Shown here: positions 36,952 through 57,592 of the stretch, piece after piece
How the letters are laid out: each line of letters begins with the position of its first letter
Numbering within the stretch: position 1 is the first letter of the stretch
Assembly (NCBI GenBank): GCA_913774845.1
Contig: CAJYJO010000045.1
Span: 1-57,592, forward strand
DNA from: an uncultured Microbacterium sp.
GTDB taxonomy: Bacteria; Actinomycetota; Actinomycetes; Actinomycetales; Microbacteriaceae
Direction of reading: 5' to 3'
Length of the DNA: 57,592 nucleotides
Program-made: the position numbers and the translations under genes
The notes under the pieces: generated by a model
What the model was told of the DNA's origin: nothing
The model's database searches: none
Seen by the model: the letters and a program-made list of their open reading frames with translations, nothing else

Positions 36952-37023
36952 CGGGACATCGTAACCGCCGCCCTCCCTAGCCAGATTGTGACGCAGTGTT
37001 TCCTCAACGGGACCGCAAGATTT

Positions 37024-37047
37024 ACGCAATGCGCCTGAACATTGCGT
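37024..37047. promoter_or_regulatory. inverted repeat between beta-helix operon and giant surface gene
   Basis: ACGCAATG and CATTGCGT, perfect 8-bp arms with 8-nt spacer, in a 209-bp divergent intergenic stretch of lower GC. Candidate operator for either side. Confidence 0.45.
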
Positions 37048-37160
37048 GTGAAGGCCATATGTTTGCTCCGCGGTTTCGTTTCCGCGCCTGCGTCCTGCCG
37101 TCCAGTGAGATCTCGCGGAAACCGCGATTCTTCCGGCGCGCACACCCCGAAGGAATCACA

Positions 37161-43100: not shown

Positions 43101-46100
43101 TCGAACGCCGACGGCGCGTACTCCTTCGAGAACCTCCCGCCGCTGCCCGCCGGGCAGAGCTACACGGTCACGGTCGACACCGAGGCGTCGAAGGCGGCGC
43201 TCGCCGGCTACACGCCGACGAAGACCGGTGCGGGCGATGCCGCGACCGATTCCTCGACGGGATCCGCGAAGAGCGGCGACCTCACCACCGACGGCGACCG
43301 CGACGACACCCTCGACTTCGGTTTCGTCACGCGCAGCTACGCGCTGGGCGACCGGGTGTGGATCGACCGCAACGAGAACGGCATCCAGGATGCCGGCGAG
43401 CGCAGCCTCGCCGACGTCACCGTCTCGCTGCAGAAGGCGACCGGCGGCGATGTCACCGACGTGAACGGCGCCACCGTCGCCTCGGTCACCACCGACGAGG
43501 ACGGCGCGTACGTCTTCGACGCCCTCCCCGCGGGCGACTACCGCGTCGTGTTCACGCTGCCCACCGGTTACAAGTTCACCGCTGTGCAGCAGGGTTCGGC
43601 TGACGGCTCCGACTCGGACGCGGCGACCGGCGGTCGCACCCGCGCGATCACGCTGGGCGACTCCTCGCCGCTGGTGGCCCGCGACGGCCTCTCCGCGACC
43701 CAGGGCATCGACCCGACGTGGGACGCCGGTGTCGTGCCGCTGAAGGTCTCGGTGGGCGACTACGTGTGGGTCGACACCGACGGCGACGGCATCCAGGACG
43801 AGGGCGAAAAGGGCCTGCCCGGTGTCTGGCTGACGATCACCGGTCCCGACGGGGCCGCCGTCACCGACGTGTTCGGTTCGCCCGTTGGCGCGGTGCGCAC
43901 CGACGGCAACGGCGCCTACCTCTTCGAGAACCTGCCGCCGCTGCCGGCCGGGAAGTCCTACACGGTCGCGATCGACACGACGCGTTCCGCCGAGGTGCTG
44001 ACGGTCTACACCCCGAGCCCTGCCGGAGTCGGCGACGACCGCGGAGTCGACTCGTCCACGGGTTCGGCGAAGACCGGCGACCTCACGACCGACGGTGCGT
44101 CCGACAAGAGCATCGACTTCGGGTTCACCCCCTTCGGTCCGGCGATCACCGTGGTCAAGGCCGACGAGGAGGGCCGCGACGCGAACACCGCCGACACGGC
44201 CGCCGACCTCACGACCGCGAACGGCAAGACCACCCTGGTCTTCACCGTCCGCAACACCGGCAACGAGCCGCTGACGAACATCAGCCTCAGCGACGTCGTC
44301 ACCGGTTCCGCCACGGTCGGCGCGATCGACTGCGCCTTCCCCGGCGGAAGCGGGGGCAGCTCGTGGTCCGGTCCGCTCGCGGCCGGAGCGAGCGTCGAGT
44401 GCACCGCCACCCTCACGGGTGTCGAGCCCGGCCAGTCGCACCGCGACGTCGTCACCGTGACGGCCCAGGGCCGCTTCACGGGCACCCCGGTGAAGGCGAC
44501 CGACGAGTATCGTGCGACCAGCGCGCCGCGCGTCTCGGTGGGCGACTTCGTGTGGGTCGACACCGACGGCGACGGCATCCAGGATGCCGGTGAGCCCGGC
44601 CTCCCGGGTGTGTGGGTGACCCTCGAGGGCCCGAACGGCGCGGCGGTGACCGACGTGTTCGGCAAGACCGTGGGTCCCGTGCAGACGGACGCGAACGGCG
44701 CGTACAGCTTCGGCTCGCTCCCGGTGCTCGGCGCCGGCGAGGGCTACACCGTGCGCATCGACACGACCCGTTCGGCCGACGTGCTCGCGCCCTACTTCCC
44801 GACGACGGCCGGCGCGGGCGACGATCGCGCGAAGGACTCGTCGACGGGCTCGGCGACGTCGGGCGCTCTGCGCAACCAGGGCGACAGCGACACGAGTCTC
44901 GACTTCGGATGGCGTCCGCGCACCTACGCCGTGGGTGACCTCGTCTTCGTCGACGCCGACCGCGACGGCATCCAGGGAGCGGGCGACACCCCGCTCGCCG
45001 GAGTCGCCGTGTCGCTGCTGAAGGCCGACGGGACCCGCATCGCGGGCACCCGCACCGACGCCGACGGCCGCTACCTGTTCGACGAGCTGCCCGCGGGCGA
45101 GTACCGCGTGCGGGTGGAGCTGTCCGAGGCCCAGCAGGCGCTGTACCGCTTCACGGTGCGCGACGCCGGCAACGACGGCTCCGACTCCGACGTCGACCCG
45201 ACCACCGGGACGACCGACGTGTTCACGCTCGGCCGCGGCACCGTCACCACGCAGTACGAGGCGCAGAAGGTCCGCGCCACCGAGGGCATCGACCCGACGC
45301 GCGACGCGGGCGTCATCGCCCGGACGTACGCGATCGGCGACCTCGTGTGGAACGACCTCAACGGCAACGGCGTGCAGGACGCGGGAGAGCCGGCCCGGCC
45401 CGGCGTGACCGTGACCCTGTACGACGCCGACGGCAAGGTCGTGAAGACGACGACAACCGACGCGGCCGGACGCTACCTGTTCGACGACCTCGCGCCGGGC
45501 CGCTACCAGGTCGGCGTGGACGTTCCGGCCGGGTACCAGCTCAGCCCCCAGGGCACGACCGATCCCGCGCGCGACTCCAGCGTCTCGGTGACCGACGGCC
45601 GCTCGCCCGTATTCGAGCTGGGCACCGGGAACACCGCGGTCGACGGGAAGTACGCCGACCAGCCGTTCGGAGCCTCCGAGGGCGTCGACCCGACGTGGGA
45701 CATCGGCCTGGTGGCCTTGACCTACGCGATCGGCGACCAGGTCTGGTACGACACCGACAACGACGGTGTGCGCGATGCCGGCGAGCGTCCGGCGCCCGGG
45801 ATCGGTGTCATCCTCCGGGATGCCGCGGGCCTGGAGCTGCGTCGCACGACGACGGATGCCGACGGACGCTACCTGTTCGACGTGCTGCCCGCGGGCGACT
45901 ACGCGGTGCAGTTCGTGCTCCCCGCCGATGTCGCGGCCACGCACCGCTTCACGCAGCCCCTGCGCGGCGGCGACGCGGCAGTGGACTCGGATGCGACGGC
46001 GTCGGGCCTGACCCGCACGTTCACGCTCGGTGGAGGGTCGGCCTCGGTGACCACCGCGTACGACCTGCAGACCGTGAAGGCCACGGGCGGCATCGACCCG

Positions 46101-46244
46101 ACCATCGACGCGGGCCTGGTGGTCATTCCGCCGCCGCTCGCGGTGACCGGTGGAACGGTCGCCCTCCTGGCCGGTGTGCTGGGTGCGCTGATGGTCGTGC
46201 TCGGCGGGCTCATCATCGCCGTCCGCCGCCGTCGGACCGCCTGA
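37161..46244 (+). CDS. giant LAXTG-anchored surface protein with SdrD_B repeats
   Basis: 3,027 residues from TTG 37161, chosen because AAGGA lies six bases upstream and a signal peptide (RRRGIAIATVSALAAGLLVAG) follows; earlier in-frame starts give implausible N-termini. Residues ~50-160 are a first SdrD-like fold (GKVNGVAFRDYNQNG), ~160-680 a non-repeated domain of unknown fold, then about 15 SdrD_B-like modules to ~2,960, each with a calcium-loop motif such as WLDADRDGIQDANEP, and two DUF11-like inserts near 975 and 2,330. LAVTG at ~2,993, helix, RRRR tail. It is likely a long, calcium-stiffened stalk or adhesin. Two module subtypes tend to alternate. Confidence 0.88.
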   Translation: MSSNTPAPALTRRARAEHTKNARRRGIAIATVSALAAGLLVAGGVVTAANAQSGKVNGVAFRDYNQNGQFDPTGTDGLSDVGVVGVRAQAFAADGTLVGTATTSATGAYSIPISASLADGSPVRVQFDQFPTGFFDSFALSTAGANGSSVQFTTVGAENVNVGLHTLNDFSRGTATPVVTAVMANGASTTSRASTARSLSAVLPSTTNALHTQPPTVATTITTFNETGALWATAIDDLGNNRFRIYAAATVKRHSGFGPRGIAGLYSVVVTTNNAGQVTREANSFQSYDLASTGVSFGSVTRDLAEQGANDTGTADYAAYAAAGKAGIGGIALVDGRLYVVNLQDRKIYSYDTANLAAAPTAIDITGLGANERPWAVTARDGALYVGVTDTTDVSKGARVLRAALGTSTPAFAEVLQVPLTYNRGVAWHRDNPVATAGQAVTKWHAWTDDPTVVYNSGDFTSEQATGFRIASFRAWAQPILSSLAFDDGGNVVLSLTDRLSIQGGQNNLWQGRPTSDRITAISAGDTLYAGRGDDGRFVLESNGTVQLRDAGNNAVTRVRSLGSTVAAGQTARENTQGPGGREFFEDSVGWDGRGGLQSGEGVVHDETSLGAAVSLPGQNLLASVAYDPATQYNVGGNRFSRLSTGESLDGFNQYPAFSATYFEKAGGIGSVAAVLPDPPVQIGNRVWLDADRDGIQDANEPAIAGVTVRLLNAAGNTVLATTTTNAAGEWYFSSTTTSALAPNTDYVIEVVRPSGALTLAGNGANAFPGIQGAELLFTKPNVSGSSDLVDSDVTATNGGSSARTSIRTGAAGVNDHSIDAGFIRKTYALGDRVWLDENPSVPGIQSTDKNGIQDPGEPGLAGVTVTLRNASGTVVGTRTTDANGLYVFDELPAGSYTLEFATPNGYYRTTADAGNNGSDTTDSDAATSGANPGRTTTIVLGDGSVDASYTPGVSFTATQGIDPRWDAGFVTYTPSLTVKKTDAAGADADTADTAVDLAASNGSTQIRATLTNTGDEPLVDIRLTDAQGQNSSGTVTAFTCTPTGGSAVTLPWAGPLAPGATVDCVATLSGVTPGSAHLDTVTVTATGAVSGKKVSDDDPFNATSRTYAVGDRVWRDVNGNGRQDDAAAESGVAGATVTLLGANGAQIAQTTTDADGRYLFDGLPAGDYRVRFTLPAGMTFTTADANGVETDRNSDAVRDAQNRLVGLTKQFRLDSSSTLTPSGDYTGLPATASEGVDGTWDAGVIADSVSVGDFVWLDANRNGIQDAGELGIPGVQLTIVGPNGAAVTGTNGEPVGPATTDGSGKYLFERLPLLADGQSYTVRLDASGQTALAGYRPTASGRGDADVDSSTGSAKTIAPLTTDGASDLTLDFGFVGRTYALGDEVWRDADKDGIRDADELPLAGVTVTLLDADGEPVTGVDPQVTGTDGRYLFDNLPAGTYAVRFELSAADAVTSQFTRAVAGSDASVDSDARVGTNPAIAETAPITLNDSNTAITTAYTPAVSATEGIDPTWDAGVIVKSVSVGDRVWRDDDRDGIQDAGEPGIQGVVIELLGADGQPVLGADGAPLTRTTDADGAYLFDGLAALPAGSHYTVRVDEKASATVLAGFVPAPSGQGGDRGADSSTGSAESGDLTTDGASDRTLDFGFMVKTYAIGDVVWIDRDGDGLFGAGEQTLPGVTVSLTDAGGAPVKDALGSEVQPRTTGADGRYVFDQLPAGQYIVQFTLSDAQKLQYRFTVRDAGDADDRDSDVSANGRTGVITLSDANTALTTTYQPAVAASQGIDPTVDAGVIANAVTVGDFVWVDKDEDGIQDAGEPGLGGVVLTIEGPDGKPVTDVRGATVAPVVTNAEGAYSFTGLPTLAQGQSYTVRIDTEDPRTIAALAGYRPSPVVGGGTGANDSSDGSAVSQKPLDTNGASDDTLDFGFIAKSVSVGDRVFEDVDRDGVQGDRDRGLPGVVVTLTGPNGAAVTDVFGAPVGPATSNADGAYSFENLPPLPAGQSYTVTVDTEASKAALAGYTPTKTGAGDAATDSSTGSAKSGDLTTDGDRDDTLDFGFVTRSYALGDRVWIDRNENGIQDAGERSLADVTVSLQKATGGDVTDVNGATVASVTTDEDGAYVFDALPAGDYRVVFTLPTGYKFTAVQQGSADGSDSDAATGGRTRAITLGDSSPLVARDGLSATQGIDPTWDAGVVPLKVSVGDYVWVDTDGDGIQDEGEKGLPGVWLTITGPDGAAVTDVFGSPVGAVRTDGNGAYLFENLPPLPAGKSYTVAIDTTRSAEVLTVYTPSPAGVGDDRGVDSSTGSAKTGDLTTDGASDKSIDFGFTPFGPAITVVKADEEGRDANTADTAADLTTANGKTTLVFTVRNTGNEPLTNISLSDVVTGSATVGAIDCAFPGGSGGSSWSGPLAAGASVECTATLTGVEPGQSHRDVVTVTAQGRFTGTPVKATDEYRATSAPRVSVGDFVWVDTDGDGIQDAGEPGLPGVWVTLEGPNGAAVTDVFGKTVGPVQTDANGAYSFGSLPVLGAGEGYTVRIDTTRSADVLAPYFPTTAGAGDDRAKDSSTGSATSGALRNQGDSDTSLDFGWRPRTYAVGDLVFVDADRDGIQGAGDTPLAGVAVSLLKADGTRIAGTRTDADGRYLFDELPAGEYRVRVELSEAQQALYRFTVRDAGNDGSDSDVDPTTGTTDVFTLGRGTVTTQYEAQKVRATEGIDPTRDAGVIARTYAIGDLVWNDLNGNGVQDAGEPARPGVTVTLYDADGKVVKTTTTDAAGRYLFDDLAPGRYQVGVDVPAGYQLSPQGTTDPARDSSVSVTDGRSPVFELGTGNTAVDGKYADQPFGASEGVDPTWDIGLVALTYAIGDQVWYDTDNDGVRDAGERPAPGIGVILRDAAGLELRRTTTDADGRYLFDVLPAGDYAVQFVLPADVAATHRFTQPLRGGDAAVDSDATASGLTRTFTLGGGSASVTTAYDLQTVKATGGIDPTIDAGLVVIPPPLAVTGGTVALLAGVLGALMVVLGGLIIAVRRRRTA

Positions 46245-46283: not shown

Positions 46284-46325
46284 AGCGGGTGGGATCACGC
46301 GAGCTGCGCGATCCCACCCGCTTCG
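46281..46325 (-). terminator. hairpin overlapping the end of the LuxR gene
   Basis: 16-bp perfect arms, 46281-46296 and 46310-46325 (GATCCCACCCGCTTCG). One arm lies inside the last codons of the LuxR-type gene and the loop spans the stop-proximal codons. It shares three bases with the neighbouring terminator, so only one can fully form. Confidence 0.65.
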
Positions 46326-47818
46326 GCGTTCGCCCCGGCGGTGCCGACGCTCCCCGAGAGACGCAGTGCCTCCTCGCGGGAGTGGGCGCCGAGCTTGCGG
46401 TACAGCGCGCGCACGTGCGACTTCGCCGTGTTGACCGAGACGTGCAGGGCGGCCGCGACGTCGCCGAGGGTGTCGTGCATCGCCAGCGCGTCGAGCACCT
46501 GGCGTTCCCGCCGGGTGAGCTGGGCGTTCTCGCGGTACACCCACGGGGTGGGGGCCTCCGCCTTGGCGGGCAGGAGCGCGCGCAATGCGGGTGTGGCCTC
46601 GATCAGCGCCCAGGTCGAGCCGTGGTGCGCGACGATCGACGCCGCCTGGTGCAGCGTCGGGGCGGAGAGCGTCCCGGATGCCGCGAGCTCCGCCGCCGCG
46701 GCGAGCACGGCGCCCGAGGCGGTCAGCCGCGCGGGGACCGAGGAGCGCGTCGGTTCCTCGCACCGGAGGAGGGCGAGCGCGCGGTCGGGGCGACCGAGCA
46801 GGAACGCGTGGCGCGCGCGGGGGAGGAGCAGCGCGGGATCCTCCTCGCGCAGTCCCGGGGCCGCGAGTACGTCCTGCGCTGCGCGCAGGTCGTCGACGCC
46901 GTGGTACAGGCTGACGAGGTCGCCGCGCAGCACCGCCCCGGGGGCGGAGGTCGGCGAGAACAGTGCCGCCTGGGTGACGAGGGCGCCGGTGAGACGGTGG
47001 ATCATCTCGCAGGCCGTCCCGTCGACGAGCGCGGCCCGGGCCCGGATGTGCAGCTCGATCCACGACAGCGCCTCGCCCGTCGGCGAGCGGTCGATGCTGC
47101 TCAGCGCCGCCCGGGCGCCCCTGAGGTCGAGCGCGTTCAGGGCGACGAGCGCTCGCGCGAAGGCCCCGGCCCGCGCGCCTGTGCGCGTCGGCGGCCCCGG
47201 CTCGCTGTCGAGCACGGCGCGCGCCTCCGCGAAGCGATCGGCGAGGGCGTGTGCCAGGGCGAGGTGCTCCGCGGCATCCCTCGCGGAGGGGTGCTCGTCG
47301 GTGCGGGTGGCCCAGTGCAGCGCTTCCGCGAAGAGGATCGCCGCGGCGTCCACGTCGCCGACCAGCAGCTTCGCGATCCCGCAGCGGATCGCCGCCGAGG
47401 GCACCGCGTCGGCCATCTCGAGTGCGCGCGGAGAGCGAAGGGATGCCAGGACCCGGTCGCTCAGGCTCGACGCCTCCTCGTACCACCCGTGCGCGAGCAG
47501 GTCCCGCAGCCGGGCGTCCTGCAGCAGCAGGAAATCCCGCGGATGCGGTGCCGGCTGCGCTTCCACCCAGGCGCGGAACCGGCCGCGGGCGTTCGCGTCG
47601 ACGAGGTCGTGGGGGCGCCGGGCGGCGTGGAAGAGCGCGCGCCACATCTCGTGGCGCGGGTGCTGCCGATACCAGTCGGCGGGAGCCGCGGCGAACAGCT
47701 TCTTGAGCAGGTCCGGCGCCGCGATGAGGCATCGGAAGAAGTGGTCGTCGAGGGTATCGGCGATGTTGTTCCACGATCCGCGGGTGAGATCGCGGGTGAG
47801 ACGTAGGATGACCGACAT
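46295..47818 (-). CDS. LuxR-type transcriptional regulator with helical sensory region (paralogue 1)
   Basis: 507 residues from ATG 47818 with GAAGGAGC upstream. A C-terminal LuxR/GerE helix-turn-helix (~435-490: LTRRERQVLDALAMHDTLGD, then VAAALHVSVNTAKSHVRALY) follows about 430 residues of helical, TPR-like sequence without a P-loop, as in the sensory part of MalT-like regulators. It is homologous end to end to the gene at 48903-50417. It converges on the giant surface gene and is divergent from the AraC-type gene with a 101-bp shared promoter region. Probably controls surface proteins; effector unknown. Confidence 0.82.
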   Translation of the reverse strand: MSVILRLTRDLTRGSWNNIADTLDDHFFRCLIAAPDLLKKLFAAAPADWYRQHPRHEMWRALFHAARRPHDLVDANARGRFRAWVEAQPAPHPRDFLLLQDARLRDLLAHGWYEEASSLSDRVLASLRSPRALEMADAVPSAAIRCGIAKLLVGDVDAAAILFAEALHWATRTDEHPSARDAAEHLALAHALADRFAEARAVLDSEPGPPTRTGARAGAFARALVALNALDLRGARAALSSIDRSPTGEALSWIELHIRARAALVDGTACEMIHRLTGALVTQAALFSPTSAPGAVLRGDLVSLYHGVDDLRAAQDVLAAPGLREEDPALLLPRARHAFLLGRPDRALALLRCEEPTRSSVPARLTASGAVLAAAAELAASGTLSAPTLHQAASIVAHHGSTWALIEATPALRALLPAKAEAPTPWVYRENAQLTRRERQVLDALAMHDTLGDVAAALHVSVNTAKSHVRALYRKLGAHSREEALRLSGSVGTAGANAEAGGIAQLA

Positions 47819-47919
47819 AGTGCTCCTTCGGGAGGGGGAGCGCACCCAGAGCTGGGCGGCGAGCGACGGGCGAGTCGTCTCGGCTGAGGGGGTGGTCCGC
47901 GATGCGGGGAGGGGGGCGC

Positions 47920-48732
47920 GTGGACGAAGAACTGCGCGCGCTGGGATGTCAGAACCTCGGTGATACCCGGGGCCTCCGGATGGAGGGCGTCGGGTCGTTC
48001 GACAACTACGTGGGGCGGTTATGGTCGCCGACGGGGACGTACCGCGGTGTGTCTTCGCCCGGCGGGATGTACGTCCTTCTCGGCGTGGAGGGCGGCGCCG
48101 ACGTCTCGTACGGGGGCGAGACGCTCGACCTTCGGCCCGACCATCTGGTGTTCCTCGATTCCGAGGCCGAGATCGACGTGCAGCTCACGGCCGCGACGGC
48201 CCGCTACCTGTGGAAGCTCCGCCCGACAGCTCTGGCGAACCCGCTCGTGCGCGAGCGCATGGGCGAGCCGATCCCGGTCGCGCGCGACGCGTGGCAGGTC
48301 GTGGCCGCGCTGACGAACAGCGCCCTCAAGGCGCCGCCGGGAGTCGCGCAGTCGCCCTACCTGCTGCGAGCCTCGGAACTGCTCCTGGCCGCCCTGTTCG
48401 AAGAGAGCGACGGGGTGGCCCGGGTGAAGACCTCGACGCGCCCCGACCAGGTCTTCGGCGAGGCGGTCGCCGTCATCGAGGCCACGTTCCGCACCGTGGA
48501 CACGCGGCCGGCGACGGTGGCATCCGATGTCTGCGTCTCGGAGCGGACGCTGCGCCGGGCGTTCGCCCTGATGGGCACCACGCCGCGTCGCGAGATCGAG
48601 CTCCGACGCACGCGCGAGCTGCGCGCCCTGCTCGAGACCCACGGCTCCACGATCGCCTTTGAGACGCTGTGCGAGATGTCCGGTTTCGCCAGCGCGCGTC
48701 TGGCGCGCGAGGCCCTGCGACGCGTCGGCTGA
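47920..48732 (+). CDS. AraC-family transcriptional regulator
   Basis: 270 residues from GTG 47920, placed after GGGGAGGGGGG; ATG 47902 is also in frame but lies before that ribosome site. The N-terminal half is cupin-like (GGMYVLLGVEGGADVSYGGE and TLDLRPDHLVFLDSEAEIDV) and may bind a small ligand. The C-terminal half (~175-268) has two helix-turn-helices, SDVCVSERTLRRAFALMG and ETLCEMSGFASARLAREALR, the AraC/XylS arrangement. It lies between two LuxR-type paralogues, forming a three-regulator cluster. Confidence 0.8.
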   Translation: MDEELRALGCQNLGDTRGLRMEGVGSFDNYVGRLWSPTGTYRGVSSPGGMYVLLGVEGGADVSYGGETLDLRPDHLVFLDSEAEIDVQLTAATARYLWKLRPTALANPLVRERMGEPIPVARDAWQVVAALTNSALKAPPGVAQSPYLLRASELLLAALFEESDGVARVKTSTRPDQVFGEAVAVIEATFRTVDTRPATVASDVCVSERTLRRAFALMGTTPRREIELRRTRELRALLETHGSTIAFETLCEMSGFASARLAREALRRVG

Positions 48733-48902: not shown

Positions 48903-50417
48903 TCACAACTGCCCGAGCCACAGCACCTCCTCGCGACTGTGTGCGCCGAGCTTGCGATAAAGCGCGCGCACGTGCGTCTTGGCGGTGTTGGGGGAGACGT
49001 GCAGCGCAGCCGCGACGTCGTTGATCGTCGCGTGCGCGTGCAGCGCCGCGAGCACCTCGCGCTCGCGCGGGGTGAGCTTCGCGCGGTCGCGGTACGACCA
49101 CGGCTCGGGGATCGCGGCGGAATCGAGTGACGTCAACGGCAGGATGCGCTCGCGCAGCCCTCGCGACGCGTGGGTGAGCGCGCTGTACGCACCGTGGTGG
49201 TTGACGGCGGTGGCGGCGAGCTGCAGCGTGGTGGGCGAGACGTCTCCGGATGCCGCGAGCTCGGCCGTCGCGTAGAGCACGGCGCCCGTGGGGAGGTGGC
49301 GTGACGGCGTGGTCTCGGGGCGCGTGTGCTCGTTCTGGCGCAGGAGCGACAGCGCCTGCTTGGGCTTTCCGCGAAGAAGCGCCTGCCGCGCCAGGGGGAT
49401 GACGAGGCTTCCGGGCCGATCGAGCAGACCGGCCGAGCCGAGCACGCTGTCGGCCGCACGAAGATCGTCGACCGATTGGTACAGCCCCGCGAGGTCGGCG
49501 CGAAGGACCGACCCGGCGATCGTCTCGGGGGAGGTGCGGTTCGAGCCGGTCGCGAGCAGCGTGTTGATGCGATGGATGAGGTCCCACTGCCCTCCGCGCA
49601 TGAGTGCCACGCGGGTGCGGGTGTGCATGGCCACCCAGCCGAGGTCGCCCTCGACGATCGCGTCGTCGATGTGCTGGAGCTGTTCAGCGGCGGCATCCAC
49701 GTCGAGGGCGGCGGTGCTGATGAGCACGCGCGCCAGGATGCCGGCCGGTTCGTAGTGGTACTGCAGGGTGCCGGGACGGCGCAGGGCGGGAGTCTCGGGA
49801 GAGAGCAGCGCGACCGCGTCGGTGTAGCGCTCCTCGAGCGCGTGGACGAGCGCGAGGTGCTCGCGGGCGTAGGGGGCGAGCGGGTGCTCCTCGGTGAGCG
49901 TTCCCCAGCGGACCGCGTCGGCGAAGCACTCGGCCGCGGCCGTGAGGTTTGCCGCGAGCAGCTTCGCGAGACCGCATCGCAGCAGCACGGACGGCATGAC
50001 GTCGCCGAGCCCCTGCGGGCACTGCGGACCGGTGCGGATGGTGTGGAGGATGCCGTCGACCAGGCGCGAGGCGTTCTGGTACCAGCCGTGGGCGAGCAGC
50101 TCGCGCAGTTCGGCCTGCTGCACGCCGAGCACATCGCGGGCGGCCGGGGTCGGCTGGCTCTCGACCCAGCGCCGGAACGCCGTGACGCTCTCGCGTTTCA
50201 GCACCATCCCCGGCCGGTCGACCGCGGCGGCGATCGCCGCCGACATCGCGTGCCGGGGATGCGCGTCGAACCACTCCTCCGGCAGGGCGTCGAAGACCCG
50301 GTTGAGCACGGCGGGCTCCGTGGCGAGGTAGCGGTAGAAATTGGCATCGAGGAGTTCGTCGACACGCTCCCACTCTTCGTGGTCGAGCGCATGCTGGAGG
50401 GCGCGCGTGCGGTGCAT
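48903..50417 (-). CDS. LuxR-type transcriptional regulator (paralogue 2)
   Basis: 504 residues from ATG 50417 with GAGGAG upstream; earlier in-frame codons to 50477 lack one. Same layout as paralogue 1: helical region with shared blocks (HPRHAM, LLAHGWYQNASRL, RCGLAKLL, EHLALVHAL, SVDDLRAADSVL) and C-terminal helix-turn-helix LTPREREVLAALHAHATIND, VAAALHVSPNTAKTHVRALY. It is divergent from a DUF11-repeat surface protein across 572 bp that holds direct-repeat boxes GGGTGA-N6-GGGTGA, one copy facing this gene, so autoregulation and control of the surface genes are likely. Confidence 0.82.
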   Translation of the reverse strand: MHRTRALQHALDHEEWERVDELLDANFYRYLATEPAVLNRVFDALPEEWFDAHPRHAMSAAIAAAVDRPGMVLKRESVTAFRRWVESQPTPAARDVLGVQQAELRELLAHGWYQNASRLVDGILHTIRTGPQCPQGLGDVMPSVLLRCGLAKLLAANLTAAAECFADAVRWGTLTEEHPLAPYAREHLALVHALEERYTDAVALLSPETPALRRPGTLQYHYEPAGILARVLISTAALDVDAAAEQLQHIDDAIVEGDLGWVAMHTRTRVALMRGGQWDLIHRINTLLATGSNRTSPETIAGSVLRADLAGLYQSVDDLRAADSVLGSAGLLDRPGSLVIPLARQALLRGKPKQALSLLRQNEHTRPETTPSRHLPTGAVLYATAELAASGDVSPTTLQLAATAVNHHGAYSALTHASRGLRERILPLTSLDSAAIPEPWSYRDRAKLTPREREVLAALHAHATINDVAAALHVSPNTAKTHVRALYRKLGAHSREEVLWLGQL

Positions 50418-50527
50418 CGGTACTCCTCGGATCGGATTCCCCGCCGCGTCGGGCGCGCGGACGACGAAGCTGGTCATCAGTCATTCGATGCCGGGGTGGA
50501 CGCGAAGCGAAAACGCCACACGCAATA

Positions 50528-50545
50528 TCACCCGAAACATCACCC
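50528..50545 (-). promoter_or_regulatory. GGGTGA direct-repeat box facing the LuxR paralogue 2 gene
   Basis: On the minus strand GGGTGA-TGTTTC-GGGTGA, 111 bp before the LuxR start. It matches the box at 54289-54306 in 17 of 18 bases, and flanking TATT is shared. Confidence 0.6.
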
Positions 50546-50679
50546 GCTGAGACGCCCGCGGCGCGAGGGAGCGGCACCCGTTCGAGGCATCGGGACGATG
50601 CGTCGCTCGCGGGCTCCGCGCGCTCGCCGCCGCGGCTCTCGACCACCCAGATGCGCGAACGCCTCGGATATGACGCGAG

Positions 50680-50697
50680 GGGTGAGCATTCGGGTGA
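50680..50697 (+). promoter_or_regulatory. GGGTGA direct-repeat box, distal to DUF11 gene 1
   Basis: GGGTGA-GCATTC-GGGTGA, same 12-bp period as the other boxes; about 290 bp before the start. Confidence 0.5.
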
Positions 50698-50814
50698 GGC
50701 CGTCTTGTTCCGGCGGCCGTCGACCGTGCCGGGCGCACCCTTCCGACGCTGTCGGTGATGGATGCCGGCTCCGCGGCCGAGTTCGCCGGAGGTTCCCTGT
50801 CGATGTCAGCGCAG

Positions 50815-50833
50815 GGGTGAGGCGAACGGGTGA
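50815..50833 (+). promoter_or_regulatory. GGGTGA direct-repeat box, proximal to DUF11 gene 1
   Basis: GGGTGA-GGCGAAC-GGGTGA, spacer 7 rather than 6; a further half-like GAGGTGAGATTCC follows at 50851. Confidence 0.45.
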
Positions 50834-50930
50834 GAGAGCGAACGACTTCGGAGGTGAGATTCCTGGATCGGCTCGTCAATCGGGCATGCGTACGTGTTTC
50901 GTGGCTCTGGCAACCGTCTCAGACGGGCTG

Positions 50931-50944
50931 CGGGGGTACCCCCG
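50931..50944 (+). promoter_or_regulatory. palindrome in the leader of DUF11 gene 1
   Basis: CGGGGGTACCCCCG, perfect 14-bp palindrome 46 bp before the start. The equivalent place upstream of gene 2 (about 54378) has only an imperfect version. Confidence 0.4.
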
Positions 50945-50989
50945 GATCCCTGCTCATCTCTGCACGTTCGACAGCAAGAAGGAGCCCTC

Positions 50990-53503
50990 GTGCGTCCCAC
51001 TTCCGCGCGCCGACAAGACGGCGCACCACCCAGAAAGAGAGCGTTGCTCTCGAGCCTGCTCGCCTTCGGCCTCGTCGCGGCAACGCTGTCGGCGGGCCTC
51101 GTTTCGGCGGACGTATCGCCGGCCGTGGCTGCGCCGGGGAACCCGGGTACGCCGTCAGCGCCGAGCACGCTTTACAACGAGACGTTCGAGAACGGGGTGG
51201 GGGCCGATCCGATCCTGCTCACCGATTACACCGGCGCGACGGGCACCCGCTACACGGCGGATCAAGCGTGGCTCGAGAACTGCAACGGTGCCATCGTCGA
51301 GTTCAACAGTCCGGATTCCGGGATCGACTCGCCCGCTGTCAACCGTTGTCGCCCGAACTCATCAGGGGACGACCCGCGAATCAGCTACGGGGCGATCAGA
51401 CAGTTGGCTTATGCCCTCGGGTCGTACGCGGGCACGGACCCAGCGACGAACCACGCCGTGGCTGCTTACACGAACGGCAACCCGGGCCCGAATCGGGTTG
51501 AGATCCAAACGGTAAATACGATTCCCCTCAATGCATCGGGTCGTTACGTGTCTTTCAGCGTTGACACGGCCGCATTCAACTGCGAGTACTCGGCGCCCTC
51601 CTACGACTTCTACCTCGTGCAGTCGGACGGTACGCAAGTGTTTGCGGGTTCAGCAAACGCATGCACCTCAGGTAGGACGACCAGCGTGCCCGCAATCGAT
51701 GGTGGACGTGCGCGATCCGATGTCAGCGTCGGCACGTACACGTCCGACGGTGCTGTGAAAGTCACCGGGAACAGTCTCGGTCTGATCATGCGCAACTCCA
51801 ACGGCAGCGGTCTGGGGAACGACGCCGCGTTCGACAACCTCAAGATCCTCGACGTCACGCCGCAGATGGACAAGTCATTCAGCCCCGCGCTGCAGCGCAC
51901 GGGCGACGTGGCGACCCTCACCTTCACGGTGACGAACACCAGTGAGCTCGGAGCCAAGGGCGGGTGGGGGTTCACCGACAACCTGCCCAACGGGCTCGTG
52001 CTCGCCAACGGCAACGTGGGCGGCACGTGTGACGCGGTCACCTCGGCACCTGCCGGTGGACGCACCATCCGCGTCGCCGACGGCAACCTCTCCAAGGGAG
52101 AATCGTCCTGCACCATCACCGTCGAGGTCACCTCGACGCAGGCGGGCACGTACGACAACTGTCCGACGACCAACGTCACAACGAACGGTCTCAATCAGCC
52201 CGACTGCGCGCGCATCGAATTCAGCGACCCGACCTTCACGACCTCCAAGACGGTCGACAAGGAATTCGCGCGCCCGGGCGACGTCGTCACGTACACCATC
52301 ACGGTGAAGAACACGGGGCGCGTGCCGTACAGCGAACAGCGCCCGGCTGCCTTGACCGACGACCTGTCGAAGGTCCTCGATGACGCCACCTACAACGATG
52401 ACGCCTCGAACGGGGCTGTCGTGTCCGGTGACACGCTCTCGTGGTCGAGTGCGTTGGCGGTCGGCGAGACGAAGACGATCACGTATTCGGTCACGGTCAA
52501 CGACCCCGACAAGGGCGACAAGGTGCTCGACAACGTCGTGACGCCGAAGGGTGACGGCGGCACCTGCGACCCCGAGGGCGACTGCAAGACATCGACTCCG
52601 GTGCAGACGTACAAGGTCGACAAGACGTCCGACAAGTCGACGGTCTCCCCCGGCGACACGGTGACTTACACGATCACCGTCACCAACACCGGCAAGGTCG
52701 CCTATTCCGAGAAGGAGCCGGCGTCGTTCGACGACGACCTCTCGAAGGTGACCGACGACGCGACCTACAACAACGACGCCACCAACGGTGCGACCGTCTC
52801 GGGTAACACGCTGTCGTGGGCGGGAACACTCGCCGTCGGCGAGACCAAGACGATCGTCTACTCGGTCACGGTCAACAAGCCCGATACGGGCGACAAGGTG
52901 CTTGAGAACGCCGTTGTGCTGACGGGCCCCGGGCCCACCCCGCCCCCGCCGCCGATCATCACCAAGGTCGGCACGTACACGGTCGAGAAGGCCGTCGACA
53001 AGACGACGGCCAAGTCGGGCGACAAGGTGACGTACACGGTCACGGTGAAGAACACCGGTCAGACGGACTACACGACCGATGAGCCCGCGTCCTTCACCGA
53101 CGATCTGTCGAAGGTCACCGACGACGCGACGTACAACAAGGACGCCACGAACGGCGCGACGGTCGACGGCAACACGCTGTCGTGGTCGGGTGCCCTAGCG
53201 AAGGGCGAGACGAAGACCATCGTCTACTCCTTCACCATCAACAACCCGGATCTCGGCGACCGCGTGCTGCACAACGTGGTGACTCCGACGGGACCCGGTG
53301 GCGACTGCGGCGGCGTCTGCGAGACGACCACGAAGAACACCACCCCGCCGCCGGGCCCGCTGGCCGCGACCGGCGGAATGATCCTCGCCACCGCTCCCGC
53401 GTGGCCGTGGATCGGGCTGGGAGCGCTCGGGTTCGCTGTGCTGATCGCTCTCGGTGTGGCCCGGGTGCGCCGCGTCCACCTGGACGACGGCTCGCAGGGC
53501 TGA
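50990..53503 (+). CDS. LAXTG-anchored DUF11-repeat surface protein 1
   Basis: 837 residues from GTG 50990 with AAGGAG six bases upstream. Signal peptide ~1-45; an N-terminal beta-sandwich-like domain ~50-290 (NETFENGVGADPI, SLGLIMRNSNGSGLGNDAAF); a divergent DUF11-like module ~290-415; three closely similar DUF11 modules starting about 416, 541 and 663 with the pattern PGDTVTYTITVTNTG and DDATYNNDATNGATVSGNTL; LAATG at ~791, helix, short basic tail ending DDGSQG. It is probably a surface stalk or adhesin. It is paralogous to the gene at 54439, sharing leader, signal peptide and modules. Confidence 0.85.
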   Translation: MRPTSARRQDGAPPRKRALLSSLLAFGLVAATLSAGLVSADVSPAVAAPGNPGTPSAPSTLYNETFENGVGADPILLTDYTGATGTRYTADQAWLENCNGAIVEFNSPDSGIDSPAVNRCRPNSSGDDPRISYGAIRQLAYALGSYAGTDPATNHAVAAYTNGNPGPNRVEIQTVNTIPLNASGRYVSFSVDTAAFNCEYSAPSYDFYLVQSDGTQVFAGSANACTSGRTTSVPAIDGGRARSDVSVGTYTSDGAVKVTGNSLGLIMRNSNGSGLGNDAAFDNLKILDVTPQMDKSFSPALQRTGDVATLTFTVTNTSELGAKGGWGFTDNLPNGLVLANGNVGGTCDAVTSAPAGGRTIRVADGNLSKGESSCTITVEVTSTQAGTYDNCPTTNVTTNGLNQPDCARIEFSDPTFTTSKTVDKEFARPGDVVTYTITVKNTGRVPYSEQRPAALTDDLSKVLDDATYNDDASNGAVVSGDTLSWSSALAVGETKTITYSVTVNDPDKGDKVLDNVVTPKGDGGTCDPEGDCKTSTPVQTYKVDKTSDKSTVSPGDTVTYTITVTNTGKVAYSEKEPASFDDDLSKVTDDATYNNDATNGATVSGNTLSWAGTLAVGETKTIVYSVTVNKPDTGDKVLENAVVLTGPGPTPPPPPIITKVGTYTVEKAVDKTTAKSGDKVTYTVTVKNTGQTDYTTDEPASFTDDLSKVTDDATYNKDATNGATVDGNTLSWSGALAKGETKTIVYSFTINNPDLGDRVLHNVVTPTGPGGDCGGVCETTTKNTTPPPGPLAATGGMILATAPAWPWIGLGALGFAVLIALGVARVRRVHLDDGSQG

Positions 53504-53511
53504 CGCCGAGA

Positions 53512-53542
53512 GGGTGGGAGCGACCGACGGTCGCTCCCACCC
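53512..53542 (+). terminator. terminator of DUF11 gene 1
   Basis: 14-bp perfect stem (GGGTGGGAGCGACC / GGTCGCTCCCACCC) with a 3-nt loop, eight bases after the stop. Confidence 0.8.
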
Positions 53543-53671
53543 CCCTCCCTCGTTTGACCTCAGCCCCCGGACGAGGGACGGTGCCGCTGCGTGCGAACCG
53601 GCGGCACCAGGCGGGGCCGGTCGCGCCAGACCGGCCCCGCGCTCACGACTTCTGCCTTCGAGGAATGACAA

Positions 53672-54238
53672 GTGACGACAGAGGCCCAACCCGTGGCGAC
53701 CGCCCGGACAGCCCCGCCCCGGCGGGTGTGGAGGCTCGCCTCCGCCCGGTTCTCGGACCACCGAGAAGACTTCCGCGAGGCGACCATGAATGACATCCCC
53801 GCCGAATCGTCCGAGCGGCGTACTCCTCGAACACACGACGCGAACATTCAGCCCGCGGAAGAGCTGCATCCCGCTGTCGGGGCCGTTCTACTGGCCGCGG
53901 CTCAGGACTCGGTCACGGCCCGCGGTGCGCGGCGACGCGAGGCCTTCCGCACGGCGCGCTTCCTGCTGGCTGGATGCCGACTTCTCGGTCAACCGAGGTC
54001 GTCGATCGCCGAGCTTCTCGGGGTGCGTATGGACACCATTTCGTCCCGGAGCAGTGTCGAGGGCGACATCCACGTCGGGACGTTCGCCCGCTTGGCCGGC
54101 GTAGACGTCGCTGTGGTCGAAGAGTGGCGACATCGTGGCGACCTCCCAGCTCCCACCTTCGACCTGTCAGGACGGGTCGTCTACCCGGCTGCCGACCTGC
54201 TGGCCGCTCTCATTCGGAATCACGGGCAGCGGTGGTGA
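53672..54238 (+). CDS. small protein with possible HTH segments, unrecognised
   Basis: 188 residues from GTG 53672, with GAGGAAT upstream; an internal ATG at residue 39 is an alternative. The first 60 residues look disordered. The rest is helical: RTARFLLAGCRLLGQPRSSI, then IAELLGVRMDTISSRSS, which reads like a helix-turn-helix, and ARLAGVDVAVVEEWRHRGDL followed by FDLSGRVVYPAADLLAALI, which resembles a MerR-like or excisionase-type DNA reading element. No family recognised. It sits between the two DUF11 surface genes and may be a local regulator. Confidence 0.55.
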   Translation: MTTEAQPVATARTAPPRRVWRLASARFSDHREDFREATMNDIPAESSERRTPRTHDANIQPAEELHPAVGAVLLAAAQDSVTARGARRREAFRTARFLLAGCRLLGQPRSSIAELLGVRMDTISSRSSVEGDIHVGTFARLAGVDVAVVEEWRHRGDLPAPTFDLSGRVVYPAADLLAALIRNHGQRW

Positions 54239-54288
54239 CAACGCTCTGCGGCGGCTTGTGCACCGGAGGTCACAGCGGACGAGAAAGC

Positions 54289-54306
54289 GGGTGATGTTTG
54301 GGGTGA
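54289..54306 (+). promoter_or_regulatory. GGGTGA direct-repeat box upstream of DUF11 gene 2
   Basis: GGGTGA-TGTTTG-GGGTGA, 133 bp before the GTG at 54439; nearly identical to the box at 50528-50545. The downstream ATATTCCCGAATCGGCTCGTT aligns with the region before DUF11 gene 1. Confidence 0.6.
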
Positions 54307-54438: not shown

Positions 54439-57400
54439 GTGCGTCCATTCACGCCGCGCCGCCCAGACGGCGCGCCCCCCATAAAGAGGGCCGTTCTCTC
54501 GACCCTGCTCGCCTTCGGGCTCGTCGCAGCACCGCTGTCGGCGAGCCTCGTCACCCCGCTGGCGGCAAGCGCGGCGCAGTCGCCGTCGGAGGTGTGGATC
54601 ACCGGCTCTCGCGGCTCGACCGCGAATGGCGGGACGGCGCAAGCGAGCTTCGGCAATGTGAACTCCGTCGACGTCCGTGCGTCAGGGAACGGCGGGCTGG
54701 CCCCTCAGATCTTCGCCGGGGATCTCACCGCCACAGGAGCCAACGCATTCTGGTCACCGGACGCGCCGCAGGGCACGCCCGGCTTCACCCAGCAGGTGGG
54801 CAGTGGCCAAACGTGGACATCGCAGATCACCTTCGCGAAACCGGTCATCGCGCCGAAGGTCCACATGGTGAATGTGGATGCCAGCGCCATCCGCATCTAC
54901 GGCAACAACACCGCGGGCGCCCCGATCTCGGTCACGCGTGTCTCCGGCAACAACATTTTCACCATCAACGGAAACGGCGTCATCAATGCCGATCGCCGCG
55001 TGGCCGCGAACAACGGCTGCCAGAACAACGACGGATCCAACCCGTCGGGCGCCTGCGGATCCGTCTCCCTCGGGTCCGGCGTCATCAAGACGTTCGAGAT
55101 GTACAACGAAGGCGCCTTCAACGGCGACGGGTGGGCGTGGACGATGTCCTACCCGACTGCCCCGCTGACGAAGCAGTTCTCCCCGAACCAGATCGAGCCC
55201 GGCCAGACGAGCACGCTGACCTTCACGATCGCGAACCCCGCGAACGAAGCGCAGCCGACACTCACGCCGCTCGACTTCACCGACAACCTGCCCAGCGGCG
55301 TCACGCTCAAGGACACCGCGACGACGAACAACGGTCAGTGCGGATCGCCGACCTATTCGGGTCTCGCCGCCGGGGGATCGACGATCCAGGCGGGGAACAT
55401 CACGGTCGCCGCCGGGGCGACGTGCCAGATCACGGTCAACGTGACCGCGATCACTCCCGGCACCTACGTCAACGACAACTCGAACCTGTCCACCTCCGTC
55501 GCGAACCTCATCCCTAACGCCAACACGTCGTTGAAGGTCGCTCCTCGCTCTTACACGGTTTCCAAGACGTCGGACAAGGCGACGGCGAAGCAGGGCGACA
55601 ACGTGACCTACACCGTCACCGTGAAGAACACCGGCGGTCTTGATTACACCTCGGCGAACCCGGCGTCGTTCACCGACGACCTCTCCGCGGTGCTCGATGA
55701 CGCGACGTACAACAACGACGCATCGAATGGCGCGACGGTTTCCGGGAACACTCTGTCGTGGTCCGGTCCGCTTGCGGCCGGGCAGACGCAGACAATCACA
55801 TATTCGGTGAAGGTGAACAACCCCGACAACGGCGACAAGGTTCTCACCAACAAGGTCACACCCACCGGACAGAACGGGTCCTGCGACCCCAACGGCACCT
55901 GCGCCACCTCGACCCCCGTGCAGTCCTACACGATCGAGAAGAGCGTGGACCGCACCAAGGTCATCCCCGGGCAGAAGGTCACCTACACGGTGAAGCTGAC
56001 CAACACGGGCAAGGTCGACTACACGGCGCAGAATCCGGCCGCGTTCACCGACGACCTCTCGGCCGTGACCGACGACGCGACGTACAACAACGACGCCACC
56101 AACGGCGCCGTCGTGAACGGCAACACGCTGTCGTGGTCGGGCGCTCTCGCGCAGGGGGCGACGCAGACCATCACGTACTCGTTCACCGTCAACGACCCCG
56201 ACACGGGAGATCAGCAGCTGACCAACGCGGTCACGCCGAACGACCCGTCCGCGTGTCAGGGCAAGTGCACGACGACCGTTCCGAACGAGGGCTACACGGT
56301 CGCCAAGAGCGTCGACAAGACCTCTGCGCGTCCTGGCGACACGGTGACGTACACGGTCACGGTGCGCAACACCGGCAAGGTCGCCTTCACCGCGCAGAAC
56401 CCGGCCTCGTTCACCGACGACTTGTCGAAGGTGACCGACGACGCGACGTACAACAACGACGCCACCAACGGCGCGACCGTCTCGGGCAACACGTTGTCGT
56501 GGTCGGGGGCCCTGGCCATCGGTGAGACGAAGACGATCGTCTACTCGTTCACCGTGAACACGCCCGACACCGGCGACAAGAAGCTCGACAACGCCGTGAC
56601 CCCGACCAACCCCGCGGGCGACTGCGTGGGGTCGTGCACCACGTCGACTCCGGTGCAGACGTACGACGTCGAGAAGACCGGTGACAAGACCGTGGCCAAC
56701 CCCGGCGACGTCGTCACCTACACGGTCACCGTGAAGAATACGGGCAACGTCGCGTACACCGACCAGGAGCCGGCGTCGTTCACCGACGACCTGTCGAAGG
56801 TCACCGACGACGCGACGTACAACAACGACGCCACCAACGGTGCGACCGTCTCGGGCAACACCCTGTCGTGGGCGGGAACGCTCGCCATCGGGGAGACGAA
56901 GACCATCGTCTACTCCGTCACGGTGAACAACCCCGACACCGGCGACAAGGTGCTGACCAACTCCGTGGTCCCCACCGGCCCCGGACCCGACGACCCCACG
57001 CCGAAGACGTTCACCACGGACGTGCAGACGTACAAGGTCGAGAAGTCGGCCGACAAATCTCCGGTCAACCCGGGCGACAAGGTCACGTACACGATCACCG
57101 TCACCAACACGGGAGAGGCGGACTACACCGCCGACAAGCCGGCATCCTTCACCGATGACCTGTCCAAGGTGACCGACGACGCGACGTACAACGACGACGC
57201 CACCAACGGTGCCGTCGTGAACGGCAACACGCTGTCGTGGTCGGGCGCCCTGGCGAAGGGCGAGTCGAAGACAATCGTGTACTCGTTCACCGTCAACACC
57301 CCCGACACGGGTGACAAGGTGCTCGAGAACGCGGTCGTCCCCGACGGCCCCGGCAACGAGGGTCCGCCGCCGCCGACCGTGGTCCCGGTGCAGACGTACA

Positions 57401-57592
57401 AGACCGAGAAGACCGCCGACAAGTCGTCGGTGACCCCGGGCGACACGGTCACGTACACGATCACCGTCACCAACACGGGAGAGGCGGACTACACCGCCGA
57501 GAAGCCGGCATCCTTCACCGACGACCTGTCGAAGGTGACCGATGACGCGACCTACAACAACGACGCCACCAACGGCGCCGTCGTGAACGGCA
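54439..57592 (+). CDS. DUF11-repeat surface protein 2 (3' end outside window)
   Basis: At least 1,051 codons, open to the window edge, from GTG 54439 with AAAAGGAG upstream. The start (VRPFTPRRPDGAPPIKRAVL, then a signal helix LLAFGLVAAPLSASLV) matches gene 1. An N-terminal domain ~45-245 (EVWITGSRGSTANGGTA, INGNGVINADRRVAANNGC) is followed by a DUF11-like module ~245-370 (FTDNLPSGVTLKDT) and regular DUF11 modules starting near residues 372, 497, 619, 742, 865 and 987, every 122-125 residues. The C-terminus, presumably LAXTG-type as in gene 1, is not seen. The modules are nearly identical at DNA level, so length variation between strains is likely. Confidence 0.85.
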   Translation, partial: MRPFTPRRPDGAPPIKRAVLSTLLAFGLVAAPLSASLVTPLAASAAQSPSEVWITGSRGSTANGGTAQASFGNVNSVDVRASGNGGLAPQIFAGDLTATGANAFWSPDAPQGTPGFTQQVGSGQTWTSQITFAKPVIAPKVHMVNVDASAIRIYGNNTAGAPISVTRVSGNNIFTINGNGVINADRRVAANNGCQNNDGSNPSGACGSVSLGSGVIKTFEMYNEGAFNGDGWAWTMSYPTAPLTKQFSPNQIEPGQTSTLTFTIANPANEAQPTLTPLDFTDNLPSGVTLKDTATTNNGQCGSPTYSGLAAGGSTIQAGNITVAAGATCQITVNVTAITPGTYVNDNSNLSTSVANLIPNANTSLKVAPRSYTVSKTSDKATAKQGDNVTYTVTVKNTGGLDYTSANPASFTDDLSAVLDDATYNNDASNGATVSGNTLSWSGPLAAGQTQTITYSVKVNNPDNGDKVLTNKVTPTGQNGSCDPNGTCATSTPVQSYTIEKSVDRTKVIPGQKVTYTVKLTNTGKVDYTAQNPAAFTDDLSAVTDDATYNNDATNGAVVNGNTLSWSGALAQGATQTITYSFTVNDPDTGDQQLTNAVTPNDPSACQGKCTTTVPNEGYTVAKSVDKTSARPGDTVTYTVTVRNTGKVAFTAQNPASFTDDLSKVTDDATYNNDATNGATVSGNTLSWSGALAIGETKTIVYSFTVNTPDTGDKKLDNAVTPTNPAGDCVGSCTTSTPVQTYDVEKTGDKTVANPGDVVTYTVTVKNTGNVAYTDQEPASFTDDLSKVTDDATYNNDATNGATVSGNTLSWAGTLAIGETKTIVYSVTVNNPDTGDKVLTNSVVPTGPGPDDPTPKTFTTDVQTYKVEKSADKSPVNPGDKVTYTITVTNTGEADYTADKPASFTDDLSKVTDDATYNDDATNGAVVNGNTLSWSGALAKGESKTIVYSFTVNTPDTGDKVLENAVVPDGPGNEGPPPPTVVPVQTYKTEKTADKSSVTPGDTVTYTITVTNTGEADYTAEKPASFTDDLSKVTDDATYNNDATNGAVVNG
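55546..57592 (+). repeat. ~368-bp tandem DNA repeat encoding DUF11 modules
   Basis: Six units beginning about 55552, 55927, 56293, 56662, 57031 and 57397. The core GACGCGACGTACAACAACGA recurs nearly unchanged in each, and also in gene 1 (52753, 53119). The last two units share a stretch of more than 60 bases from about 57087 and 57453 with a single change. Confidence 0.85.

Follow-up and report, generated by a model that had tools for sequence, protein, structure and literature searches.

What reads the short direct repeats that stand before a regulator gene and two surface-protein genes of an uncultured Microbacterium sp.? The repeats, pairs of the hexamer GGGTGA set six bases apart (GGGTGA-N6-GGGTGA, called boxes here), lie in a 57,592-nucleotide stretch of its DNA (contig CAJYJO010000045.1, the window), upstream of the LuxR-type regulator LuxR2 and of the DUF11-repeat proteins DUF11-1 and DUF11-2. 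An earlier note on this DNA had proposed that the regulator controls itself and both DUF11 proteins. Our analysis of sequence and predicted structure makes it quite likely that a clan of MalT-like LuxR regulators uses the repeats as its operators; these regulators would control themselves and, most probably, switch on genes for large surface proteins.

GGGTGA pairs in the window and the source genome

Upstream of LuxR2, on the minus strand, the box at 50528..50545 (GGGTGATGTTTCGGGTGA) has its second hexamer 116 nt before the ATG at 50417 and is flanked by degenerate units at 50516-50521 and 50552-50557. On the plus strand, the region upstream of DUF11-1 carries a distal pair at 50680..50697 (GGGTGAGCATTCGGGTGA), a pair with a spacer of seven (GGGTGA-N7-GGGTGA, 50815..50833) and three units with a 12-bp period (GGGTGA, gaacga, aGGTGA; 50828..50857), the last of which lies 138 nt before the GTG at 50990. 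The candidate operator of DUF11-2, also on the plus strand, has three units as well (GGACGA, GGGTGA, GGGTGA; 54277..54306), the last again 138 nt before the GTG, here at 54439, and includes an exact pair at 54289..54306 (GGGTGATGTTTGGGGTGA). The pairs at 50528, 50680, 50815 and 54289, including the one with spacer 7, had been described in the earlier note and were all recovered from the sequence, as was the identity of the first and the last at 17 of 18 bases; TATT follows in both. The DUF11-1 and DUF11-2 promoters are paralogous, with the units at 50828, 50840 and 50852 aligning with those at 54277, 54289 and 54301, and are duplicates of each other. Because they align at the 12-bp units, the register used before DUF11-1 may be a different one from that of the spacer-7 pair. 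One further exact pair, absent from the earlier note, is found at 47782..47799 on the plus strand, inside the first codons of LuxR1 (a LuxR2 paralogue) and 103 bp before a gene for an AraC-like regulator. It belongs to three units with a 12-bp period (GGGTGA, GGGTGA, GGATGA; 47782-47811) within those codons, facing the AraC-like gene.

The 12-bp period is non-random. Within the window we found 26 matches to GGGTGA-N6-GGGTGA with at most two mismatches against 8.25 expected, and none of 100 shuffles reached 26. The source genome (3.37 Mb in 55 contigs) holds 13 exact pairs and no copy of the reversed pattern; over spacers of 0-30 there are 77 exact pairs in total, with 13 at spacer 6 compared to 2.1 per other spacer (Poisson P about 4e-7). 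Spacer 16 is the second commonest in this genome (nine pairs). Pairs with spacer 16 or spacer 15 occur, for example, at C3:137834 and C43:65218 (G, C and L numbers denote genomes, contigs and loci), and the spacer-15 pairs beginning GGGTGAACTTT resemble PHO boxes.

The boxed genes of the source genome are LuxR2, DUF11-2, an ATP-binding, MalT-like LuxR regulator (LAL) on contig C17 (box at 51098), a second C17 gene (43910) and a C8 gene (58522), to which the DUF11-1 region is added. The 43910 box stands before a gene that we assigned, by reading its translation, to an exopolysaccharide-type glycosyltransferase, and the 58522 box before a gene whose start lies at a broken contig end. By eye, the C17 LAL promoter contains four tandem units with periods of 12, 11 and 12. 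Of the 13 exact pairs, at least three fall in coding sequence, a number consistent with chance: one in an adenosine deaminase gene on C28, one in a probable glycosyltransferase gene on C24 and the one at 47782 in LuxR1 codons (names assigned by eye). The C24 site (C24:19528) was considered as a glycosyltransferase promoter and rejected, as it lies within the coding frame (GDVWGDT). The non-coding exact pairs at L001, L003, L007 and L009 are near unrelated genes. Weaker or reversed boxes were also seen before genes that by eye look Lsr2-like and WXG100-like (L090 about 2947, L091 about 2255, L001 1501).

Boxes accompany MalT-like regulators in relatives

Next, we asked where the boxes occur in other genomes. 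Among 198 genomes of the genus, close full-length homologues of LuxR2 were found in two, the source genome (G000; LuxR2 and LuxR1) and G044, whose homologues are 40-54% identical; the best G044 match has an E-value of 2e-104 and that of the next genome 4e-14, with at most seven candidates scored per genome in most rows. The tight pattern GGGTGANNTTTSGGGTGA is likewise present in two of the 198, with four copies in the source genome and one in G044, and the genomes with the tight 12-bp form are exactly those with close LuxR2 homologues. The second hexamer of the box before the G044 LuxR2 homologue lies 98 nt upstream of the ATG, at a contig end. A LAL gene of G044, judged by eye from its N-terminus to be the orthologue of the C17 LAL, has a box 149 nt before its start, compared to 164 nt in the source genome. 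A second close LuxR homologue in G044 (C228) has no pair upstream on its contig at up to two mismatches. Divergent from the G044 LuxR homologue is a gene that looks sigma-factor-like by eye, with further GGGTGA units on its strand (L067 5405-5470, 3646-5265), and a similar sigma-like gene is boxed in G012 (L097 15996). A wider contig scan beyond G044 returned only a weak GerE match, from Mycolicibacterium.

A sequence model of seven sites was searched in ten chosen genomes. Its own training sites scored best, including the 50680 pair (18.1 bits, E 0.009), and all other matches were weak (E 0.09 and above). Such weak matches stand before an SdrD-like gene in G031 and a surface-protein gene in G098, both 7-8 kb from a LuxR homologue, and in the source genome before the Lsr2-like and WXG100-like genes (by eye).

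We also examined the neighbourhoods of regulators, fetching no more than 20 kb of DNA around each. The regulators had been selected for protein similarity, frame size and score ahead of any search for boxes, except that L095 and L096 were chosen after a model match near them. Around TPR-type regulators of the genus (20 loci, 389 kb), 18 exact pairs with a spacer of 5 (11 pairs) or 6 (seven pairs) were found in 13 of the 20 loci, while the other 29 spacers together gave 13 pairs, so that N5/N6 is 20-fold enriched. In one of those 13 loci (L098) the pair lies within coding sequence. Without L095 and L096, 15 pairs remain in 11 of 18 loci, compared to 10 over the other spacers. LAL loci of the genus contained five exact N5/N6 pairs in three of 10 loci (8-fold), and the 10 loci of short LuxR regulators of the genus contained none. 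In other genera, where the choice was blind, the loci of the 20 best homologues of the L107 regulator gave 12 pairs in 10 loci (22-fold), and 20 further TPR-type loci gave five pairs in four (9-fold). Taken with the spacer-6 excess in the source genome, this enrichment at such regulators shows that the boxes are not randomly placed.

What do the boxes precede? Fifteen of the 18 pairs at TPR-type loci of the genus lie 7-308 bp before a correctly oriented gene, as called from simple open reading frames (ORFs) with a codon-position filter, not with a gene finder. These genes include regulators (L099, L103, L108, L113), large secreted proteins (L095, L096 twice, L100, L106, L107, L109), a sigma-factor-like gene (L097) and four others. 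A scan of 150 genomes of the family with GGGTGAN{5,6}GGGTGAARTY, based on sequence only, returned 23 matches in 20 genomes, and its reversed control none. Seven of the 23 (L206, L208, L209, L213, L219, L224, L227) were known earlier and had shaped the ARTY tail; each either precedes a gene for a giant protein or adjoins a LuxR/LAL gene. Six of the 16 new matches are similarly placed, four (L205, L215, L216, L226) before predicted secreted proteins and two (L207, L222) beside LuxR/LAL genes. For ten of the 23, including three new ones, a regulator among the matches listed is no more than 11 kb away. At L226, a box is found 142 bp upstream of a gene from another genus whose 1059-aa product is 41% identical to DUF11-1 (428 columns, 4e-76). 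When ten proteins encoded downstream of boxes, several of them partial, were searched against Pfam, five matched families including DUF7933, DUF7927, CshA_NR2, DUF11, DUF7507 or DUF5979; the other five matched no Pfam family at 1e-5 and are predicted to be surface proteins from their size and signal-peptide-like starts. The boxes before the G044 LuxR2 homologue and the L226 relative of DUF11-1 supply the conservation in relatives that the earlier note had looked to, and this conservation and the regulator-linked enrichment support, at the level of sequence, its proposal that the regulator controls itself and both DUF11 proteins. The circuit is probably wider than that, taking in the LAL, the exopolysaccharide-type glycosyltransferase gene and perhaps a third DUF11 gene.

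Motif and promoter geometry were read from a table of 35 hand-picked sites. Sites of doubtful place (L097 8684 and 8695, L098, L108 2256, L120, L122, L124 8678, L165 13408, L169 11780, L193 10849, L201, L204) were left out, as were the pairs of the source genome that had not been assigned to a gene (L001, L003, L006 to L010). The extended motif is GGGTGA-N5/6-GGGTGA-RRTY; T occupies the third position after the second hexamer in 25 of the 35 sites, although that position was not selected for, and C never occurs at the second. Five of the 35 (two from one genus) have a TANNNT element at an offset of exactly 40 nt from the second hexamer on its downstream side, with at most one site at any other offset; this would place the boxes upstream of the -35 element, as for an activator. 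The source genome's own promoters did not show this arrangement, and its exopolysaccharide-type promoter has TACTGT 11 nt after the second hexamer.

Candidate binders and alternative explanations

LuxR2 (48903..50417, minus strand; translation might begin earlier, at 50477) has 504 aa and combines a helical N-terminal part with a C-terminal GerE helix-turn-helix (HTH) domain (Pfam, 1.3e-12), its only Pfam family above the curated cut-off. LuxR1 (46295..47815, minus strand), 1.1 kb away and 48% identical to LuxR2, has the same domain (1.4e-11) and a weak TPR_12 match. Between them on the plus strand lies the AraC-like gene (47902..48732), with HTH_18 and AraC_binding_2 matches both below the curated cut-off. 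Pfam at E 0.01 revealed no ATPase, autoinducer-binding or receiver family in LuxR2 or LuxR1, and we rejected a quorum-sensing LuxR on the second of these results and a NarL-type response regulator on the third. The C17 LAL, by eye, has a P-loop-like GPSGIGKTALL in its translation. The AlphaFold model of LuxR2, built from three sequences only, is all-helical (mean pLDDT 70.8). Foldseek matched it to generic TPR solenoids, none at E 0.001; domain III of MalT (1hz4) ranked sixth among them (E 4.3e-3) and was the sole bacterial transcription factor in the best 50 of 1026 matches. When solved structures were searched by sequence, matches to LuxR2 were confined to the HTH (VpsT, NarL, GerE and others). 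The NCBIfam MalT equivalog gave 32.9 bits against a cut-off of 537, in the HTH part only. On its sequence we class LuxR2 as MalT-like, not as MalT, because an ATPase was not found and the cut-off of the MalT model was not reached.

The likeness to MalT lies in the C-terminal LuxR/GerE HTH, which follows a helical part that may be an alpha-solenoid, and in hexamers arranged as a direct repeat. MalT boxes of E. coli and Klebsiella are described as GGA(T/G)GA direct repeats at or upstream of the -35 element, overlapping it, and an Actinoplanes MalT as having an inverted pair, TCATCC-5nt-GGATGA (PMC7567727). Our boxes share the direct repeat, but their hexamer is GGGTGA, one base from GGATGA; in further contrast to MalT, their period is 11-12 bp, Pfam found no ATPase in LuxR2 or LuxR1, and control is likely to be exerted on surface proteins and on the regulators' own genes. 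Direct repeats upstream of a promoter are also described for TpdR, an actinobacterial LAL activator with 15-bp repeats at its promoter (PMC6099782), and for MilO, with three 11-bp repeats 2 nt apart and suggested monomer binding (PMC11784345). These systems differ from ours in repeat sequence and in their catabolic or antibiotic targets, and TpdR has an N-terminal ATPase. In our search of the open-licence literature, no account of GGGTGA repeats with LuxR was found, nor one of this regulator class with surface proteins in Microbacteriaceae. A LuxR-type regulator reportedly activates the S-layer gene cspB of Corynebacterium glutamicum, which would likewise be a LuxR-type regulator switching on a dominant surface protein.

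We infer that the clan would combine an alpha-solenoid sensor part with a C-terminal GerE HTH, with or without an N-terminal ATPase, and that LuxR2 and/or LuxR1 and the C17 LAL would bind the GGGTGA repeats, whose period is 12 bp in the source genome and either 11 or 12 bp in relatives. Binding would be head-to-tail, one monomer per hexamer on one helix face, just upstream of the core promoter. The regulators would control their own genes and most likely activate those of giant, probably sortase-anchored surface proteins (DUF11-1, DUF11-2 and perhaps a third copy) as well as the exopolysaccharide-type glycosyltransferase gene.

Several observations sit poorly with this proposal. In the direction of LuxR1's own promoter there is no GGGTGA-N6-GGGTGA match at up to two mismatches, and the SdrD-like gene at 36996 has no box here although its G031 counterpart has one. 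An exact pair is missing from seven of the 20 TPR-type loci of the genus, 10 of the 20 best-homologue loci and 16 of the 20 further TPR-type loci. Weak model matches lie inside coding frames of G034, G012 and G159 (L072, L074, L076), and 10 of the 16 new scan matches are in coding sequence or near unrelated or unclear genes. G044 has 13 exact pairs, of which only the two regulator pairs are clearly placed, the others being mostly in coding frames or near unrelated genes. Finally, over 59 whole genomes of the genus the N5-6 excess is modest (283 pairs against 215 with N8-9), and most pairs elsewhere are therefore background; the loose N5/6 pattern was dropped as a whole-genome marker in the genus.

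Which alternatives could account for the boxes? Chance repetition of a codon-rich hexamer in a G+C-rich genome, combined with promoter duplication, would explain the roughly three of 13 exact pairs in coding sequence and the duplicated DUF11-1 and DUF11-2 promoters. We give it almost no credence and rejected it on the spacer, co-occurrence and neighbourhood tests; the box positions contradict it as well, and beyond the boxes and a few following bases no likeness between the LuxR2 and DUF11 promoters was seen by eye. PHO boxes, the binding sites of the OmpR-type response regulator PhoP, consist of GTTCACC repeated directly with an 11-bp period. That our boxes are PHO boxes is very improbable: the GGTGA core would fit, as would the sites of relatives that have an 11-bp period, but in a PHO box the second base behind GGGTGA must be C (GGTGAAC), and the absence of that C after the second hexamer in all 35 sites led us to reject this identity. 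Moreover, our boxes repeat every 12 bp, as do 10 of the 12 pairs found with the best homologues in other genera, and PhoP would leave the clustering at LuxR genes unexplained.

Two alternatives keep the boxes as operators within the LuxR family and deserve more weight. The true binder might be the ATPase-bearing C17 LAL, or LuxR1, with LuxR2 merely one of its targets; we regard this as unlikely, though well short of implausible. The C17 LAL and its G044 orthologue are each boxed, most boxes of other genera lie at loci with a LAL-size regulator frame, and LuxR1 is 48% identical to LuxR2. Against this, the genomes that have the tight 12-bp form are those with close LuxR2 homologues, boxes also stand before the TPR-size regulators of L099, L103, L108 and L113, and seven of the 10 LAL loci of the genus lack an exact pair. 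The presence of a GerE domain is not enough to identify the binder. LuxR1 and the C17 LAL are candidates as good as LuxR2. The regulator might instead repress, with boxes that overlap or adjoin the promoter and silence the surface proteins. The TACTGT so close to the box of the exopolysaccharide-type promoter would suit a repressor, and the LuxR-family LAL SCO6993 is described as able to repress (PMC9628970), but the sites with TANNNT at 40 nt put the boxes upstream of the -35 element, and we consider repression rather improbable. We thus favor operators of MalT-like regulators that most likely activate their targets.

Surface-protein cassettes and a possible wider display system

DUF11-1 (50990..53503, plus strand; 837 aa) contains DUF7933, DUF7927 and DUF11 repeats and, by eye, a signal-peptide-like start and an LAATGG-like C-terminal sorting signal. 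It is followed by a gene for a 188-aa HTH_17/MerR-like protein (53672..54238, plus strand; Pfam matches below cut-off) and by that of the giant DUF11-2 (54439..57592, plus strand), which runs off the contig. The last 117 bases of the window (57476-57592) recur as the first bases of contig C41, where the remainder of DUF11-2 probably lies; on C41 (L258 1-6000) a copy of the HTH gene precedes an ORF that looks sortase-like by eye (L258 3625-4281). A DUF11 search of the source genome gave 22 matches, on contigs C45, C41 and C18 only. Each of the three DUF11 genes is followed by a small HTH_17/MerR-like copy (window 53672-54238; L257 3015-3443; L258 3263-3628), and these copies are 49 and 54% identical. 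Judged from these sequences, a DUF11 gene with a small HTH gene is a repeated surface-protein cassette. In another genus, a small HTH gene beside a boxed regulator (L165/L213) is similar by eye and was not found by tblastn at 1e-3. An SdrD-like giant surface protein (36996-46244) adjoins LuxR1, and its counterpart in G031 (L095 12161-16369), beside a similar beta-helix gene, has three GGGTGA units.

Runs of at least 10 G or C are rare, with four distinct ones in 2.24 Mb of fetched loci (overlaps included): G15 at the end of contig C8 (L002), where the boxed C8 gene has only just begun; C23 at the start of contig C18 (L257/L242), in the portion of the C18 DUF11 gene that encodes the N-terminus; C13 at L168 3540 in another genus, with a box on one side and a large ORF on the other; and G16 at L110 9072, near the start of a LuxR frame. 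Such tracts could give rise to slipped-strand phase variation, although the C8 and C18 contig ends at tracts may be assembly artefacts instead.

Altogether, these data allow us to put forward, tentatively and at somewhat less than even confidence, a surface-display system shared across the family. In it, a clan of MalT-like LuxR regulators with or without an ATPase would use one operator code (GGGTGA as an 11-12 bp direct repeat, often with ARTY behind it) to drive cassettes of box, giant DUF11-type gene and small HTH gene (three here), long homopolymer C/G tracts where some such genes start would make expression switchable, and regulators and operators would co-evolve locus by locus. The boxes offer an operator that can be put to the test for a large class of LuxR proteins of actinobacteria, most of them uncharacterised, and let targets be predicted from sequence, among them giant surface proteins of unknown function. 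They also hint that MalT-like direct-repeat recognition has been re-used for cell-surface display, with or without an ATPase switch. If this is true, regulator-target pairs would become readable from many genomes of the family, and the signal for surface display would become findable.

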